DNA of 41,405 nt. Source: Candidatus Eisenbacteria bacterium (GTDB lineage: Bacteria; Eisenbacteria; RBG-16-71-46; JASEGR01). Shown piece by piece: positions 2,084 through 21,734 of the stretch. Both the position numbers and the translations under genes were made by a program. A model generated the notes under the pieces. That model ran no database searches. It was not told the DNA's origin and saw only the letters and a list, made by a program, of their open reading frames with translations. Numbering within the stretch: the stretch's first letter is position 1; every line of letters starts with the position of its first letter. The stretch spans positions 1-41,405 of the forward strand of contig JASEGR010000018.1 of NCBI GenBank assembly GCA_030017955.1, in the 5' to 3' direction.

Positions 2084-2156
2084 GTTGACTCCTTTGAACT
2101 TATGATACACTATCTTTCTTTGACGATTGTCGTGACCGCAAACACGCTAGTCGCCT

Positions 2157-2184
2157 ATACCCATCTTTTTGCGGAGATGGGTAT
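2157..2184 (+). promoter_or_regulatory. Hairpin upstream of the HNH gene
   Basis: A perfect 10-bp inverted repeat (2157-2166 with 2175-2184, 8-nt loop) lies just before the HNH reading frame. A second copy of the right arm (2190-2199) could pair with the left arm instead. Such hairpins upstream of phage homing endonucleases (for example T4 I-TevI) can hide the ribosome site in readthrough transcripts. Confidence 0.55.
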
Positions 2185-2202
2185 TTGGGAGATGGGTATT
2201 TG
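2173..2202 (+). repeat. 15-bp perfect tandem duplication in HNH start region
   Basis: The unit GGAGATGGGTATTTG occurs twice back to back (2173-2187 and 2188-2202). Each copy holds an SD-like GGAG and an in-frame ATG, so three in-frame ATG codons (2177, 2192, 2204) are available to the HNH gene. Confidence 0.85.
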
Positions 2203-2203
2203 T

Positions 2204-2662
2204 ATGAAGAGAATCCTACTTACCAGAGATCAGTTCTCTCTTGTTGATGGTGAGGATTTTGAGTGGTTAAGCCAATGGAAGTGGCATTACAGCCAATGTG
2301 GCTATGCGGTAAGAAGTGTCTATAAGGGGAATCCAGCAACAATTCCCATGCATCGAATGATATTACAGACACCACGAGGTCACGATACTGACCATGTTAA
2401 TGGCAACAAGCTCGATAATCAACGCAGGAATCTACGGGTTGCTACTCGTTCTCAGAATATGATGAACGCTAAGAAACGAGCTGACAATACCTCTGGCTAT
2501 AAAGGAGTTTCTTGGTTTAGAGAAACAAGAAAGTGGTGTGCAAAGATACAGATTGATGGACGAAGTTATAATCTTGGATATGCCGATACACGAGAAGAGG
2601 CATTTTTGATCTACTCGAGAAGAGCAAAAGAGTTATTTGGAGAATTCTCTAGGCTAAATTAA
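2204..2662 (+). CDS. HNH homing endonuclease with AP2-type DNA-binding domain
   Basis: This is 152 aa from ATG 2204 (MKRILLTRDQFSLVDGEDF), a start supported by the paralogue at 39656-40135, which begins MKKIMLTQQ. Residues ~45-75 hold the HNH motif: MHRMILQ, then DTDHVNGNKLDNQRRNLR. The C-terminal ~50 residues match an AP2 domain (GYKGVSWFRETRKWCAKIQ ... RAKELFGEFSRLN). It is a free-standing homing endonuclease: plus strand amid minus-strand fibre genes, more A+T-rich than its neighbours, preceded by a hairpin and overlapping the next minus gene by 9 bases tail to tail. Expected role: cleavage of phage DNA lacking the element, driving its own spread. Confidence 0.9.
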   Translation: MKRILLTRDQFSLVDGEDFEWLSQWKWHYSQCGYAVRSVYKGNPATIPMHRMILQTPRGHDTDHVNGNKLDNQRRNLRVATRSQNMMNAKKRADNTSGYKGVSWFRETRKWCAKIQIDGRSYNLGYADTREEAFLIYSRRAKELFGEFSRLN

Positions 2663-2890: not shown

Positions 2891-4834
2891 TCAGCCTGCG
2901 TAATACGAGCAGGCGATCTTACCTTGCTTATCATTCAATGATTGTCGAGCCTTTCCTAAAACCACCCGCATATCGTTGCCGTCATACCGCATTGCATAAC
3001 CTGGGGTATTGGAAGTACAGAGGAAATCTCCAATCGAGATTGGCCCGCCCTCATTCGTCACAAGCACAATCCCTGAACCAAGTGAGAGCACAAGGATGTC
3101 GCCATCACGATCATGTCCGCCAAAAACACCGTAGACCGCTTTATCTTCCTTCTTCGATGAGATGGCACACTTCGGGAGATGATTAGTTACTTCATCTGGC
3201 CAGCTTGCCATTTCATCAGTGGAAACAAGAACAGTTCCAGGTTCCAAGGTACTTGTGTAGACCTTAACTGGCGTCTCAACGATGAACTCCCGATCCTCTC
3301 GTTCACCTGAGCCGTCTTCTTTGTCTACCCGTCTCGTAACAGTCTTCCGTGAGACAGTCTCAATCTGCGTTTTTTGAATGGCATCGCACTGGCTCCAGTG
3401 GGAACCCGTGAAGGTGTTGTAAGCAAGGACTCCCAGAACAGCCGTTCCCGCGATTGATCCTTCCGATCCAGTGGAACTTTGAAAGTCAATAAAGACATCA
3501 GCAGCCGTGATATTCGCTTGAGCGGTGTTGATTTTAACAATGCCAACGGTGGCGTTATCACCGGCCTGGAAATGGAATACGTTAGACGGTGAAGCCCCGA
3601 CGCCGAAGTTCCCATCAAAGAAGACTGTACCGACTGATTCAAGTCGGAGGGTATCTGCTGCACTTCGATAGAGGATGAACTCATCAGCAACACTATTTGG
3701 ATCAGTTGACCAGCCGATGCCAAATGAATCGTCACAACGTAGGGTCTGAGCTGGACCGAAAGCTGAGTTTGCTGCCGCCGTCCAACGCAATAATCCATCA
3801 CTGGAGAAAGAACAAGTACCTGCCACAACTTGCCAAAAGCCGGTATTGGTATCACCTGCGAATGTTAGACTGGGTGTCGTCAAAGCTCCGACGGCATGAG
3901 CCAGTTGCCCAGTCATCGTGAGGACGCCAGACGAATGAGTCAGGGTGAGATTGCTATTGGCAAAATTGATCACTCCACCAGAAGCGAGGAACAGATCGGA
4001 CCATTCAGCAGTTGAAGCAACACCGAGAGCAAAGCCATCATTTGTCGAAGGTGAAGCTCGCCCTGCAAAGAACACATCATCGCCAGAAGGGTCTATCGTC
4101 AAATCACCAGATGAGGATGTAGTCAAATCGGCATAGTTGACTGCACTTCCGTCACTATCGTTGTAAGTGAGCCGAAGGTTAAGGCCGGTCGCATGATTGA
4201 TTTCGAGAGCACGGTCAGGGGCAGTAGTCATAATCCCTACGAGACCAGTCCCTATTACTCTCATCTGCTCAGTGATCCCAGCTCCAGAAAAATTACCAAA
4301 TCTCAATGAGTAATTATTGTCAGTACCGCGAACGTTAGAAACTCTTGCAGTTGGAGTTGCTCCTGAATCGAACGAATTGAAGACGATAGCGGTCCCCGAT
4401 CCGTTGGTACTACCCCCAACATTGACGAGAGAAATATCATCAATCACTGATCCGGCGGTTGTCGAGGTAATCTCCAATGGGATACTTGCATCAGCAGCCG
4501 CTCCTAAACCAAGTCTTCCGAATTGAGGAGTAGCTGCTGTGTGGATGTCCTGTGGCGTTGAGAGCACAACCGTCGAATTGGCCCCGTTGTCGGTGACGGT
4601 AACTTGATTCGCAGTACCAGTTAATGCCCGCTCAGCGGAGAGACCAGCTGTATTGCCTATTGTCACGAACGGTTCTGTCGTTGCAACGCCAGTTCCAGTC
4701 GCAGCAATGGCAATATCCTGACCGGTTTGGGTCAGAGTTATGTTGGTCCCCTCGGAAATTGTAACGTCACCAGAGAGACCGGTTGAACCGTTCTTGGCAA
4801 AAGTCTTAACTCGTTTAGGAAAAACTACACTCAT
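2891..4834 (-). CDS. Tail fibre/spike protein with C-terminal beta domain
   Basis: This encodes 647 aa from ATG 4832-4834 (MSVVFPKRVKTFAKNGSTG); GGAG six bases upstream fixes the start. The start overlaps the HNH stop as ATGA. The N-terminal ~480 residues are Gly/Ala/Thr/Ser-rich, with fibre-like TITQTG and GLSAERALTGTANQ stretches. The last ~170 residues form a distinct domain (GTVLVSTDEMASWPDEV, ISIGDFLCTSNTPGYAM, VVLGKARQSL, ending IACSYYAG). That domain resembles C-terminal chaperone or peptidase_G2-type modules of phage fibres; this match is tentative. Likely a receptor-binding or adhesion fibre. Confidence 0.75.
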   Translation of the reverse strand: MSVVFPKRVKTFAKNGSTGLSGDVTISEGTNITLTQTGQDIAIAATGTGVATTEPFVTIGNTAGLSAERALTGTANQVTVTDNGANSTVVLSTPQDIHTAATPQFGRLGLGAAADASIPLEITSTTAGSVIDDISLVNVGGSTNGSGTAIVFNSFDSGATPTARVSNVRGTDNNYSLRFGNFSGAGITEQMRVIGTGLVGIMTTAPDRALEINHATGLNLRLTYNDSDGSAVNYADLTTSSSGDLTIDPSGDDVFFAGRASPSTNDGFALGVASTAEWSDLFLASGGVINFANSNLTLTHSSGVLTMTGQLAHAVGALTTPSLTFAGDTNTGFWQVVAGTCSFSSDGLLRWTAAANSAFGPAQTLRCDDSFGIGWSTDPNSVADEFILYRSAADTLRLESVGTVFFDGNFGVGASPSNVFHFQAGDNATVGIVKINTAQANITAADVFIDFQSSTGSEGSIAGTAVLGVLAYNTFTGSHWSQCDAIQKTQIETVSRKTVTRRVDKEDGSGEREDREFIVETPVKVYTSTLEPGTVLVSTDEMASWPDEVTNHLPKCAISSKKEDKAVYGVFGGHDRDGDILVLSLGSGIVLVTNEGGPISIGDFLCTSNTPGYAMRYDGNDMRVVLGKARQSLNDKQGKIACSYYAG

Positions 4835-5343
4835 ACAAAGCTCCAACTTCGGCCGACCCTAATCTTACTGATCGCCGAAGGTTGAACGCCAAACCTTTTG
4901 GCTAATTCTCTTCCGGCAATTCCCGAGAATAATCCCTGACGAATTGATCTTACGTCGGATTCTCGCATTTTCGCATTGGGATGTTTCTCTCCCTTCAATG
5001 AATGTCCATGATGAACCATATCAAGGGAATTCTCTTTCGGCATTCCCCAGCGAAGATTCTCTACTCTATTATCGAATGGGTCTCCGTTGATGTGACAGAC
5101 GTAGGGAAGATTCTGAGGATTCTCTATAAAGGTCATCGCTACTAAGCGATGCACTGGGATATTGTGTCTTTTCCCACTTCTCATCAAAAGGACCCTGTGG
5201 TACCTATGAGCACTCGGACGAAGTTGACGTTTCTCACTTACTATGAATGGTGCTCTACCGTTGAGAGAACGTGAAGAAAAAACCTTACCATCGGTAGTAA
5301 CGAAATATCCTGGGAAATCAATTAGTGGTTTAATCTGATACAT
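4831..5343 (-). CDS. NUMOD4-HNH homing endonuclease
   Basis: This encodes 170 aa from ATG 5341-5343 (MYQIKPLIDFPGYFVTTDGKVFS, a NUMOD4 opening), with GAGG just upstream. The HNH core is VHRLVAMTFIENP then YVCHINGDPFDNRVENLRWG. The C-terminal ~45 residues (GEKHPNAKMRESDVRSIRQG ... AKRFGVQPSAISKIRVGRSW) are a NUMOD/HTH-type DNA-reading module. It sits between two structural genes, 7 bases after one and overlapping the next as ATGA, so its end supplies the SD of the fibre gene. Role: homing endonuclease. Confidence 0.9.
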   Translation of the reverse strand: MYQIKPLIDFPGYFVTTDGKVFSSRSLNGRAPFIVSEKRQLRPSAHRYHRVLLMRSGKRHNIPVHRLVAMTFIENPQNLPYVCHINGDPFDNRVENLRWGMPKENSLDMVHHGHSLKGEKHPNAKMRESDVRSIRQGLFSGIAGRELAKRFGVQPSAISKIRVGRSWSFV

Positions 5344-5350
5344 AATTGCC

Positions 5351-6415
5351 TCATTTGAACATGATAACGGTGGACTGTTCTGATGCTGTGGCAGCCGTAA
5401 AACTGTCCTTGACGGTTGACACCCCGAAGGCAATACCCGTCGAGAAATTCGCACCAGCTGGGCCAAAGAAGTCAGTCCCGATCACGATCTGATCCCCGCC
5501 TGAGATAAGGAAAGTATAAAGAGGCGTCGCTCCGCCTGCCGGCGTAGTTGCCGTATTGTGCAGTTGGATAAACCTGTCAGCGGTGTTTTCATTCTGGCAC
5601 CACAGGGAAAAAACATTGCCGGCGGAACTTTTCACATTCGCTGTGGCATTGGCTCCGAGATCGGCAAATCTGGTGTAGGCATAGGTTGAAGCAGATGGGA
5701 CAGTCTGGATCACCTTAATAGCGTCTAAGGTATCGTCCATAACGGAATCGGCATTGGAAGTTTCCAGGGCTGCGAGGATTGCCCGTTTCTCTGTCATGGC
5801 AAATGCGCCAGCATCATTATCGTCAACCGCGTCTCGGACAGTTCGATAGGTTCCAGCAGCCGGAGTAATACCGGTCGTTCCGACCGTGAAGCCGGAATCA
5901 TCGGTCATGGAGGTACCACCACCTCCAACAGCGCCAGCTACTGCTTTCGTCGTTGGGCCACCCGCAATATCAGAGTGAAGACTGATGGTAGCCGTCCCAC
6001 TGGTGAAAGCACTCGCCCGAACCCGAATCGACTGAATACCGCCGACATGGCCATGAAATTGACCATTTGAAGTAGTCGATTGGACCGATGTAGCGCCATT
6101 CGTCGGGAAGACATCGAGCGCCTGATAATTCGTGCCGTCAATGGTACATTCAAAGGCCAATGTTGCGACCCACGTCCCCGTCACCTGAATACCGACTGCA
6201 CCATATCCACCAGTATTGAGTGTGACCGCACCATCAAGAGCAGTAATCGTGCCGCTACCAGTCAACTCAGTAACCGCTGAAATGGTGCCGGTACTACTTA
6301 CAAGAAGACGACTTGTCGTCGGATCAACAACAAGATTAGTCGGAGTTAGGTTGGCGTCATTGGTGACTGCCAACAGGGTTGTAACGTAATTGCTATCGCG
6401 TCTTGCCTGGGCCAC
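5351..6415 (-). CDS. Beta-rich virion protein (MAQARRDSNYVTTL type)
   Basis: This encodes 354 aa from GTG 6415 with AGGAG upstream. It opens MAQARRDSNYVTTLLAVTN and soon has DPTTSRLLVS, a beginning seen in structural proteins of uncultured phages. It is Thr/Gly/Ala-rich. A hinge GAVGGGGTSMTDDSG near residue 165 divides two domains, and the second half contains a short helical stretch (EKRAILAALETSNADSVMDD). No enzyme motif. Likely a fibre or head-surface component. The leader holds a terminator-like hairpin (6431-6459) whose U-tract touches the SD region. Confidence 0.7.
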   Translation of the reverse strand: MAQARRDSNYVTTLLAVTNDANLTPTNLVVDPTTSRLLVSSTGTISAVTELTGSGTITALDGAVTLNTGGYGAVGIQVTGTWVATLAFECTIDGTNYQALDVFPTNGATSVQSTTSNGQFHGHVGGIQSIRVRASAFTSGTATISLHSDIAGGPTTKAVAGAVGGGGTSMTDDSGFTVGTTGITPAAGTYRTVRDAVDDNDAGAFAMTEKRAILAALETSNADSVMDDTLDAIKVIQTVPSASTYAYTRFADLGANATANVKSSAGNVFSLWCQNENTADRFIQLHNTATTPAGGATPLYTFLISGGDQIVIGTDFFGPAGANFSTGIAFGVSTVKDSFTAATASEQSTVIMFK

Positions 6416-18801: not shown

Positions 18802-21318
18802 TCACTTATTTTGAATATCACGTCTATTCCGAATAGCACGTCGGACCGAAGCATCAACAAACTGAGCAATGCTGGGAAAGAGCGGATCACCATCCTCATT
18901 GATTGACCAAGTTGGATTGAGTGGAACTCCTTGATGACGAATTGAAATACCAGTTGATCCAGACGGATCTTGCTGACCAAAGGAAACGAGGGCAAGGGTT
19001 AAAGCATCGTAGAAGTGATCTTCTCCAGAGGAATCCAAATCTTCGAGATCAGTCTCACTATATATTAAGGAAGGGATGGTACGAGCACCATTACGAATCT
19101 CTTTACTGAAGAGAAGGTACGGACTCTCGTCAGCATGATTGGCTAGGTACCGATGGAGAATGGCTTTACGCTGGTGGCGCATTCCCCGAGAGAGCGTATT
19201 ACCACGGACTAAGGGCCGAATGTTAAAACGTTGGAATGTTTCAGCCACAGAATCCCAGCCTCCCTGCTTTGAGTAACAGTCATGAGGGAGAACGAAACCT
19301 TGAACGGATTCATGTTCTAAGATCCGAGCTAACTCTCTTGCCCACTCTTCAGGATCTTTCTTGGATTGGTAAAGTTCCCGGTAGACGAAAGCATGGCCGG
19401 TTGGAGCGAAAGCAACCCAAACGGCACAACCAGGATCGTTGTATCCCCAGTCGAAACCAACGACTCGACGACATTGGTCAATGGGGTAGTCGAAGCTATC
19501 AACAATGTAGCGTTCCCCCATGCCCCACTCGGGGAATGCCTGACCTTCAAAGATATTCCAGTCACCGTCAAGGAAGGCCTTGCGTTGCTGTTCGGGGAGA
19601 TCCTCAAGGATTTTTACATATTCTGGGTTCGCCTGCATGATGACCGGGTTGTCGTAGACCTTGGCTGGGACAAATCGGTGGTCCTCCTTGGCTTGGTCAA
19701 TGAACTCCCCCTTCACCCACATATGACCAACACCCCCAGGGTTTGCCCCTAAGAACATCTGGGTTTTCACCTTGGGGTTGATAGTTCGGATACAAGAGCG
19801 AAGAATGTCAAACTGAAACCGAGTATTTCCTGTAACGAATACGCGACCCTTGTACCGAGCGAAGAATGCGTGGTGAGGCTCAACGACAATACACCAAACC
19901 GATCCTCGGTATGGAACGTGGCGAATATCAGAACGTCGTACTTCAACAGATAGACGACTTCGGCGGCTCACGCTCAGTCGATATACTGGGTACTTACCAT
20001 TGGCGAGGGCATAACCAGCAGTTGCTACGTATCCAAGATGAATGGCAATGATTTGTAGATCATCACGCAGTCCCTCATTTGCAAGACCAATAGACCAACC
20101 ACCACTCCTCGTCCGATACCCATCTCCGGCCATGAACGCATCCCAGAATATCTTGAGCTGACGACGGCTGAGGCCAAATATCCATCGAGGAATACGTTTC
20201 TGGTACGTATCACCCATAGGTTTCAGTTCTTCGTAGAGTTGACGACTGTAAATAAGATACGAGCCTTCAGTTCGGTACGACCATCGCCAAGGCAATCGCT
20301 CAAAGAGCGATCTCAATGAGGGCTGATCCTTTGTTTGTCGAATCGAAATACGCCCTGACGATCCATTCGTTCGAGTAAATGCACAGCCCTCCGATAGATA
20401 CCATCCCAAGAACTCAAGCCAATCATCGACTGGGATTGACTGAATGCTATTCTGATTTTCCCCGATCCCTCTCCCTGATACTGGAGAAAAATCATACGAA
20501 TCGTGCTCTACCCCCTCCCAGACTCCGCTTCGGACGTGCCACGAAAACGAGGAAAGTGAATCAGCCCGACAGAACGACCACTCACCACCTTTCTGTTTTT
20601 CAATCACCATCCGGTGATTTGGTGTGACAGAAAAGGCAATCCCTTTGCGTTGGTACAGCTCAAAGAGACCACTTCGAGAAGGAAAGTCGTGAACCTCAGA
20701 GATCGGATGGTACTCAATTTGGTATGACGGTGAGAGCGTTGCAGTCTTTATACCTGATTTAAGCGTACTAATTTTCTGCCATCCGTGTTCAGTGAGAACT
20801 TCAGTATTAGGGTGAAGACAAAACTGCGTTGCTTCGTCAATGGCAATATCATCGTACTCAGTTCCAGCGTACGAGTAAGCATCAGATTCGTACTGACAGG
20901 CGCCAAGTTCTAAGACAGATCCATTCGGAAAGTTGAAGGTATTTTCCTGACGAGCAAATCGGACACCCCAAGATTTCGGGATTTCCTGAAGAAGTTTATC
21001 GATATGCGTTCTTCGTAACTCTGGGTGAGTTCGACGAAGGAGAAGTCCTCGGGACTTTGCGTGTTTCAAGCGGCGGAGAATCTGCTTCCAACGTAAGCTC
21101 CATGACTTCCCACCCCCCTTGGCCTAAGCGCCCCCGTAGAGTACGAATCTTTCCGTTGCACCGAAAAACTCAAGTTGACGTTCACTCGGCTTCAACTCAA
21201 ACTTCGGGGTTTTCTTATGTATTCGATCGAGAGGACTCTGCGAGGGCATTGGGCAATCACCTACTTTCGAGGGATATGTACGAAGTTCACTTGAACATAC
21301 AACACAGAATTTCGTCAT
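18802..21318 (-). CDS. terL: Terminase large subunit, intein-containing, with an in-frame amber codon
   Basis: This is an 839-codon frame from ATG 21316-21318, overlapping the terS stop as ATGA. The N-terminal part runs KPSERQLEFFGATERFVLYGGA. Then TAG (21124-21126) interrupts, followed in the same frame by GCC and KGGGKSWSLRWKQILRR. Walker B is DDIAIDEATQF, and a 332-aa intein is inserted right after that F. The C-terminal nuclease domain shows VVGFDWGYNDPG (first acidic residue) and EDHFYDALTLALVS (last). Without TAG-GCC the P-loop would be the usual GGAKGGGKS. Options are amber readthrough, ribosomal hopping, a dead allele or an assembly error. A truncated start at ATG 21069 would lack the ATPase P-loop. 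Confidence 0.85.
19825..20820 (-). mobile_element. Intein with LAGLIDADG (DOD) endonuclease in terL
   Basis: 332 aa, from Cys1 (CLHPNTEVLTEHGWQKI) to Asn332 (RVFVTGN), with Thr as the +1 residue. Block B is GIAFSVTPNHRMVI. The two DOD helices are FLGWYLSEGCAF and FWDAFMAGDGYR. Block F/G is VVEPHHAFFARYKGR. The penultimate residue is Gly instead of the common His, as in several terminase inteins. Splicing would join DEATQF to TRFQFDILRS, right beside the Walker B/motif III region, a typical intein site. The splicing and endonuclease residues look intact. Confidence 0.92.
21121..21126 (-). other. Amber codon and second Ala codon in the terminase P-loop
   Basis: The minus strand reads GGC GCT TAG GCC AAG GGG. 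The six bases TAG GCC are extra compared with the P-loop consensus GGA-x-GGGKS. GCT before the stop and GCC after it are both Ala codons readable by one tRNA, so skipping them would give GGAKGGGKS. Confidence 0.8.
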
Positions 21319-21734
21319 GTCCACGATTCCCAAGACTTAGAATCAACACCGGCAATGTTAATCTGGATCGCATTGATGGTCTTCTCCTCATCACCCTCAA
21401 CGAGTTTCCCAAGCCGGTCGATGTACTTGACGGTCTCTAAGCGAATCTTGTGGTCGGGAACGTAGTCCTCCCCCTCTAGTTTCGTTGCCGCCACCGCTTC
21501 GGCCAATACCTTCGCTCGGTGACGCAAGTCAACTCCCTCAGACTGCTCGATTTGAGCCAAGTAGGCCGTCCGTCGCTCCTGGACTTCATGGAAGTAGTCT
21601 CTCACCCATCGAGAAGCCGTTCCACGATCCTTCACGGTCGTTCCCTTGATTGCTTCCTTGAGAGACTTCCCTTCAGCGACTCGTTGCAGCACGGTCGCTC
21701 GTGTCCGAGTGTATCGCTTGGCTACTGCGCCCAT
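21315..21734 (-). CDS. terS: Terminase small subunit
   Basis: This encodes 139 aa from ATG 21734 with AGGAGG three bases upstream. Its N-terminal helix-turn-helix (LQRVAEGKSLKEAIKGTTVK, DRGTASRWVRDYFHEV) fits pac/cos DNA recognition. The central helical oligomerisation part (RTAYLAQIEQSEGVDLRHRA, VKYIDRLGKLVEGDEEKT) and the C-terminal tail follow. The ATGA overlap with terL, and the order, support the call. It forms the ring that recognises the viral DNA and stimulates TerL. Confidence 0.85.
   Translation of the reverse strand: MGAVAKRYTRTRATVLQRVAEGKSLKEAIKGTTVKDRGTASRWVRDYFHEVQERRTAYLAQIEQSEGVDLRHRAKVLAEAVAATKLEGEDYVPDHKIRLETVKYIDRLGKLVEGDEEKTINAIQINIAGVDSKSWESWT

Follow-up and report, generated by a model that had tools for sequence, protein, structure and literature searches.

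A stop-containing insert in the P-loop of phage terminase genes: a probable minimal translational bypass associated with HNH homing endonucleases

The window, that is, the whole 41,405-nucleotide stretch analyzed here, carries on its minus strand a gene for the terminase large subunit (terL) whose P-loop is split by an amber codon, which raises the question of how an intact packaging ATPase could be made from it. The strand reads TAC GGG GGC GCT TAG GCC AAG GGG GGT GGG AAG TCA from 21138 to 21103. The break GCT-TAG-GCC-AAG at 21129-21118 was found as given in the preliminary description, and the terL frame was otherwise intact. Downstream of the TAG, 773 open codons reached 18802; upstream of the take-off codon the frame was open for about 69 codons, rather than the 65 counted earlier, with 40 of them between the likely start ATG at 21249, which has AGGTGATTGCCCA just before it, and the take-off codon. 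The features of the region are listed in Table 1.

Table 1. Features in and around the interrupted terL gene of the window.
Feature	Position	Strand	Remark
terL, terminase large subunit, P-loop interrupted, with intein	18802..21249	-	
Intein, 332 aa, after Walker B, CLHPNTEV...FVTGN	19825..20820	-	weak match to an intein-bearing PHROG
P-loop region, YGGA-[TAG GCC]-KGGGKS	21103..21138	-	in terL
AAG where translation would resume	21118..21120	-	
Landing codon GCC (Ala)	21121..21123	-	synonymous with take-off codon
Stop codon TAG, which would stand in the A site	21124..21126	-	within the putatively bypassed gap
Take-off codon GCT (Ala)	21127..21129	-	codon 41 from the likely start
3' arm CGGGGGC of possible stem abutting the take-off codon	21130..21136	-	
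Possible 5' arm GCCCTCG	21241..21247	-	from the last base of the terL start codon
terL ribosome-binding site and start, GTAGGTGATTGCCCAATG	21247..21264	-	extended Shine-Dalgarno GGTGAT
HNH homing endonuclease N-terminal remnant, 19 codons, MTKFCVVCSSELRTYPSKV	21262..21318	-	ATG overlaps the terS stop codon
terS, terminase small subunit	21315..21734	-	phrog_1482, E 8e-5

The product was compared with TerL profiles and is TerL, with Walker A, Walker B and nuclease regions: it matched phrog_979 before the intein (E 2e-40) and phrog_2 after it (E 4e-21), and its Pfam Terminase_3 match fell slightly under the cut-off. The intein is a second selfish element within this terL. The genome contained no second copy of this terL. 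The contig ends, 1-55 and 41351-41405, were identical over exactly 55 bp, which fits a complete phage genome of 41,350 bp that is circular or permuted, so the P-loop break does not lie at a contig edge. Terminase matches were present on three contigs of the MAG bin (C18, C24 and C26), and the MAG therefore contains, or was binned with, several phages; the other terminase on C24 has an uninterrupted P-loop, YGGAAGGGKS.

To find other terminases with a longer P-loop, IMG/VR was scanned with the pattern YGGA-xxx-GGGK[ST], a P-loop longer by two codons, in which no stop was demanded. This gave 13 stretches. In all 11 that were terminases the extra codons included TAG or TGA; the two stop-free stretches were non-terminases. 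Scans with variable gaps yielded 53 stretches, many of them known already, from which nine non-terminase matches were removed. The final set comprised 45 loci including the window (hop loci), 35 of them distinct at the 80% level and 33 standard, meaning that the take-off codon stands directly before the stop. Beyond the window, 44 terminases (34 distinct) thus had a P-loop split by an insert with a stop, usually 5-10 nt long and in rare cases 13-26 nt. Insert lengths in the 33 standard loci were 5 nt (17 loci), 6 nt (8), 7 nt (2), 8 nt (2), 9 nt (1), 10 nt (2) and 26 nt (1), and the stops were TAG in 22, TGA in 10 and TAA in one. When the insert was skipped, the frame and a normal P-loop were restored in 33/33 standard loci, window included, and skipping the gap joined one open reading frame in the window and 34 other distinct loci; the earlier suggestion that a hop would repair both frame and P-loop thus extends to unrelated terminases with inserts at the same place. 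This recurrence in unrelated terminases excludes chance. The hop position lay about 26-41 codons from the start in most loci, the N termini of the proteins were diverse, and the loci derived from many independent metagenomes.

Neither simple nonsense codons nor inserts of 0-4 nt were found in any terminase at the P-loop site, though the pattern allowed such lengths; this absence disfavors nonsense mutation, small indels and sequencing error. In bacterial genomes, each searched with one of the two Tyr-codon forms of the pattern, there were no hits in 47 genomes of the window's phylum or in 394 of an order (TAT form), nor in a further 14. The element was found in no cultured phage: when four hop terminases, joined across the insert, were used as tblastn queries, nothing exceeded 60% identity, and among the matches listed the alignments were in one piece; no DNA relative of the window terL was found in cultured phages.

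Several loci deviated from the standard form. Two distinct loci outside the standard set, L070:34-80 and L084:7073-7114 (also L089), had inserts of 18 and 13 nt with a sense codon (TTT, or CGG) before the stop and apparently Gly as the take-off codon; slow decoding of the sense codon may trigger a hop there, or a different mechanism may act. A 26-nt insert on the minus strand of L057 (5243-5297) forms a perfect hairpin, TGACCC-TTTG-GGGTCA, with the stop codon within the stem; of all the inserts it most resembles the T4 take-off stem-loop. Broader patterns without TAY returned mostly chance matches, plus L045 (GCC-TAA-TTC-GCA) and L050 (GGC-TAG-CTA-GGC), which fit a 9-nt hop in GGGA-type P-loops and were left out of the statistics. 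The sole product of a TAG-restricted scan of the collection, L030, was rejected as a chance match.

The codon at which decoding would resume is defined by the protein, and the triplet before it is free of protein constraint. In 26/33 loci this triplet agreed with the take-off codon at its first two bases, compared to at most 7/33 in any other register (5 expected; P about 5e-18); the window pair, with the stop directly after take-off, is GCT/GCC. Five of the seven non-matching loci went from GCN to GTT, at which tRNA-Ala could pair by G-U wobble; the other two, with TCC (L036) and ACA (L067), have no such explanation. The third base of the take-off codon was a pyrimidine in 30/33 hop loci vs. 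32/80 P-loop Ala codons of uninterrupted controls (p 3e-7). In the commonest form, for example GCT-TA-GCT, the G of TAG is shared by the landing codon.

Downstream of the stop, close pairs of hop terminases had dN/dS values of 0.05-0.10, and on this comparison the predicted proteins are under purifying selection. One family with 74-76% identity contained CTT-TGA-CTT, CTC-TGA-CTT, CTC-TGAC-CTT and CTC-TGAAAAA-CTT; ordinary decoding cannot account for it, because the gap changes in length while the protein frame is kept. The layout of the prfB +1 frameshift is a Shine-Dalgarno sequence followed by CUU UGA C. The sequence GGG GCA CTT TGA C of L039 has this layout, but a prfB-like +1 shift would leave the TerL frame, whereas a hop of six restores it.

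The preliminary description had held that a bypass would be refuted if relatives all had an uninterrupted GGAKGGGKS. Taken literally, this is what was observed: the nearest relative (L002, 52% identical) has GGAKGGGKS without interruption, and the P-loops of six further viral relatives were uninterrupted as well. The objection was set aside because the hop state is patchy, being gained and lost over the TerL tree. In a FastTree tree of 104 TerL sequences, it requires at least 24 changes, 17 of them forced by well-supported branches, a count that pools gain, loss and transfer. Judged from this tree, hop terminases are scattered, and the state appears and disappears repeatedly.

RNA folding was compared between hop loci and controls using dinucleotide shuffles. 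In the 90 nt upstream of the take-off codon, the z score was -2.19 for hop loci and -0.33 for controls (p 5e-8); windows of 45 and 60 nt showed no difference between the groups, which was confined to 75-90 nt, where a distant arm is included. The cause appears to be pairing of the P-loop bases that abut the take-off codon with an arm about 60-120 nt upstream. A stem abutting the take-off codon separated the hop class from the control class with p 4e-10; the window by itself was not significant (p 0.15), and its minimum-energy fold preferred another 5' partner for the same P-loop bases. The paired arms were, for example, TCCACCATAA and TTATGGTGGA in L033, GCCCCCATA and TATGGGGGC in L076, and CTTGGTCCCGT and GTGGGGCCAAG in L056. 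The upstream arm often lies just past the terL start, and L033, L036, L038, L069, L086 and L088 have the 5' arm placed as in the window, just after the start codon. Neither the strength of an internal Shine-Dalgarno sequence before the take-off codon nor downstream RNA folding differed significantly between hop loci and controls. The ribosome-binding site GGTGAT was enriched (17/33 hop loci vs. 4/80 controls). A start region like AGGTGATGCC(N)ATG is common to the distant loci L059, L060, L065, L067, L069, L086 and L088 and to the window (21247-21264); homing of the endonuclease may have brought it along.

The same profile searches were applied to the neighborhoods of hop and control loci. An HNH gene lay directly 5' of terL on the same strand in 17/36 hop loci and in 0/72 controls (p 3e-10), or in 14/27 when distinct loci only were counted (p 5e-10). 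HNH_3, NUMOD4 and I-HmuI-like domains were conspicuous among the neighbors of hop terL genes and not around controls. Phage Corndog has also been described with an HNH gene 5' of its terminase (PMC4351075). The window itself keeps only a remnant at this position. Of its 19 residues, 11 are identical to those at the N terminus of the intact endonuclease that L051 encodes 5' of terL (E 7e-6; 0/2000 shuffles scored as well), and L051 is also a tree neighbor of the window TerL. Most simply read, these sequences point to a former endonuclease gene between terS and terL that has since disappeared, leaving the bypass behind. Such loss after insertion would explain the hop loci without an endonuclease. 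The related loci L034, L033 and L037 (about 86% identity) all have the hop, and L034 has no endonuclease upstream; the bypass can therefore exist without the endonuclease gene.

The comparative evidence makes it very probable that the window TerL is produced by a minimal programmed translational bypass. The ribosome would translate about 41 codons as far as GCT, bringing UAG into the A site; peptidyl-tRNA-Ala would then release, the mRNA would slip six bases forward, and the tRNA would re-pair at GCC, so that decoding restarts at AAG and YGGAKGGGKS is made. Ribosomes that do not hop would yield a peptide of about 41 residues. Synthetic short hops are generally inefficient, and a further stimulator may therefore be needed. 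We infer that the upstream stem may drive the ribosome forward by refolding in its wake, as has been proposed for the 5' stem-loop of T4 gene 60 (PMC5009743). As to why the insert is kept, the linkage and the T4 precedent favor, with moderate confidence, the destruction of an endonuclease site: a free-standing HNH homing endonuclease, its gene lying between terS and terL, would have a cleavage site that the insert splits, allowing the element to persist, and the phage of the window would since have lost most of the endonuclease gene.

The preliminary description had instead proposed that a minimal bypass controls or limits synthesis of the packaging ATPase. Recurrence and codon matching bear out the bypass; control is probably not its purpose, given the association with endonucleases. 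A genuine bypass that serves mainly to regulate or limit TerL, the linkage to endonucleases being secondary, is nevertheless a possibility of some weight, if a minority one. A hop after about 26-41 codons would determine how much TerL is made, the start codon often has the 5' arm next to it, and ribosomes are offered an unusually strong binding site. In roughly half of the hop loci, moreover, no endonuclease was detected directly upstream. Against this role stand the patchy distribution of the hop state and the strength of the endonuclease link, with later loss covering the loci that have no such gene. Regulation of TerL dose may thus be an additional or alternative role.

Readthrough, in which a near-cognate or suppressor tRNA decodes the TAG and the P-loop becomes two residues longer, is very unlikely. 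It would give a full-length protein at the +6 loci, including the window, where the downstream and upstream frames are the same, but it would run out of frame in 24/33 standard loci (inserts of 5, 7, 8, 10 or 26 nt), and even the +6 product would have its first Walker A glycine displaced. A landing codon that matches the take-off codon would be needless, and TAG, TGA and TAA all occur at the site. Reassignment of TAG or a suppressor tRNA was rejected as a candidate: TAG ends other long open reading frames of the window, which has no tRNA gene, and no other comparable in-frame TAG was found on the minus strand.

Equally improbable are inactive alleles, decaying phages, or sequencing or assembly error, which the preliminary description had offered as plainer options. 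The window is a metagenome assembly and its nearest relative is uninterrupted; yet the simple nonsense codons and 1-4 nt indels that one would expect more often in dead genes did not occur once at the site in terminases, and the recurrence in many independent metagenomes, the ever-restored frame, the matched landing codons and the low dN/dS do not fit decay or error. The shared 55-bp ends further suggest an assembly with k=55, in which the k-mers spanning the insert would come from reads. Least probable of all are insertion or excision footprints of a mobile element, with the codon repeats as target-site duplications of no translational function: the take-off and landing triplets do resemble short direct repeats flanking the insert, but they are in codon phase with a stop directly after, are often synonymous rather than identical, and are preserved by selection even as the intervening gap alters in length, and a mere footprint would leave the packaging motor TerL unmade.

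The best analogue of the proposed terL bypass is T4 gene 60, in which the take-off codon is followed by UAG, the landing codon is matched, a stem-loop lies upstream, and the HNH gene mobA, described as apparently defective, is nearby (PMC5009743, PMC3014915, PMC2988022). In both cases the gene concerned is a split or interrupted essential one; take-off is near codon 46 in gene 60 and would be at codon 41 in the window, and the defective mobA has its counterpart in the endonuclease remnant. The interrupted gene is a topoisomerase gene in T4 and terL here, and the T4 insert is 50 nt long compared to 5-10 nt in 32/33 standard terL loci. A nascent-peptide signal such as KKYK is a further mark of bypassing of the gene 60 kind. 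Unlike gene 60, the terL hops have many apparently independent origins, and their landing codons are often synonymous, not identical.

Synthetic +5 and +6 stop-hops in E. coli (Weiss et al. 1987, as cited in PMC5009743) are reported there with the same geometry of matched codons around a stop, and these are the two commonest terL lengths; those were constructs, whereas the terL inserts are natural. No natural in-frame stop-hop was known as of a 2016 review (PMC5009743). The terminase of Streptomyces phage Hau3, as cited in that review, is a proposed bypass candidate that involves a UUA codon rare in its host, in contrast to the stop codon in the P-loop here. The byp elements of Magnusiomyces mitochondria are many short inserts that are bypassed, with landing codons sometimes imperfect (PMC5009743); they concern organellar ribosomes and many genes per genome, whereas the terL hop occupies a single codon-exact site in a single phage gene. 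A literature search, with most subscription journals and bioRxiv outside its reach, returned no report of a stop-hop element in terL.

We somewhat favor the view that the minimal bypass is a widespread and repeatedly evolved phage defense, directed at homing endonucleases whose cutting site lies where terL is most conserved. If so, a few inserted bases would ruin the DNA site, and a short, stem-aided stop-hop would hide them from the protein, suggesting an escape route by which an essential gene evades a selfish nuclease that targets the site conserved best in it. The cassette logic of T4 mobA and gene 60, so far the only well-established programmed bypass of a phage, would then have arisen many times, and natural stop-hops would be common rather than a T4 curiosity. 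Comparison across dozens of natural short hops, which differ in gap, stop and codon pair, would allow the rules governing take-off and landing to be tested. A further consequence is that the packaging ATPase will be truncated or overlooked when phage genomes of this kind are annotated automatically.

Two more HNH endonuclease genes are present in the window, at 2102-2662 (plus strand) and 4831-5466 (minus strand). The latter overlaps both of its neighbors, 5351-6415 and 2891-4846 (the second with a TTG start only), and may have been inserted between or into tail-region genes. A possible unusual start was noted at 305-1222 on the minus strand. The open frame there, of 304 codons, comes immediately after the TGA of gene 1220-2110, with which it is in frame, and contains no ATG, GTG or TTG for about 148 codons. 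The sequence TGAGGAGGTTATACGCTA suggests initiation at ACG or another unusual codon, similar to the tmp gene of Corndog, where the choice between an ACG start and a bypass poses a puzzle next to an HNH gene (PMC4351075).
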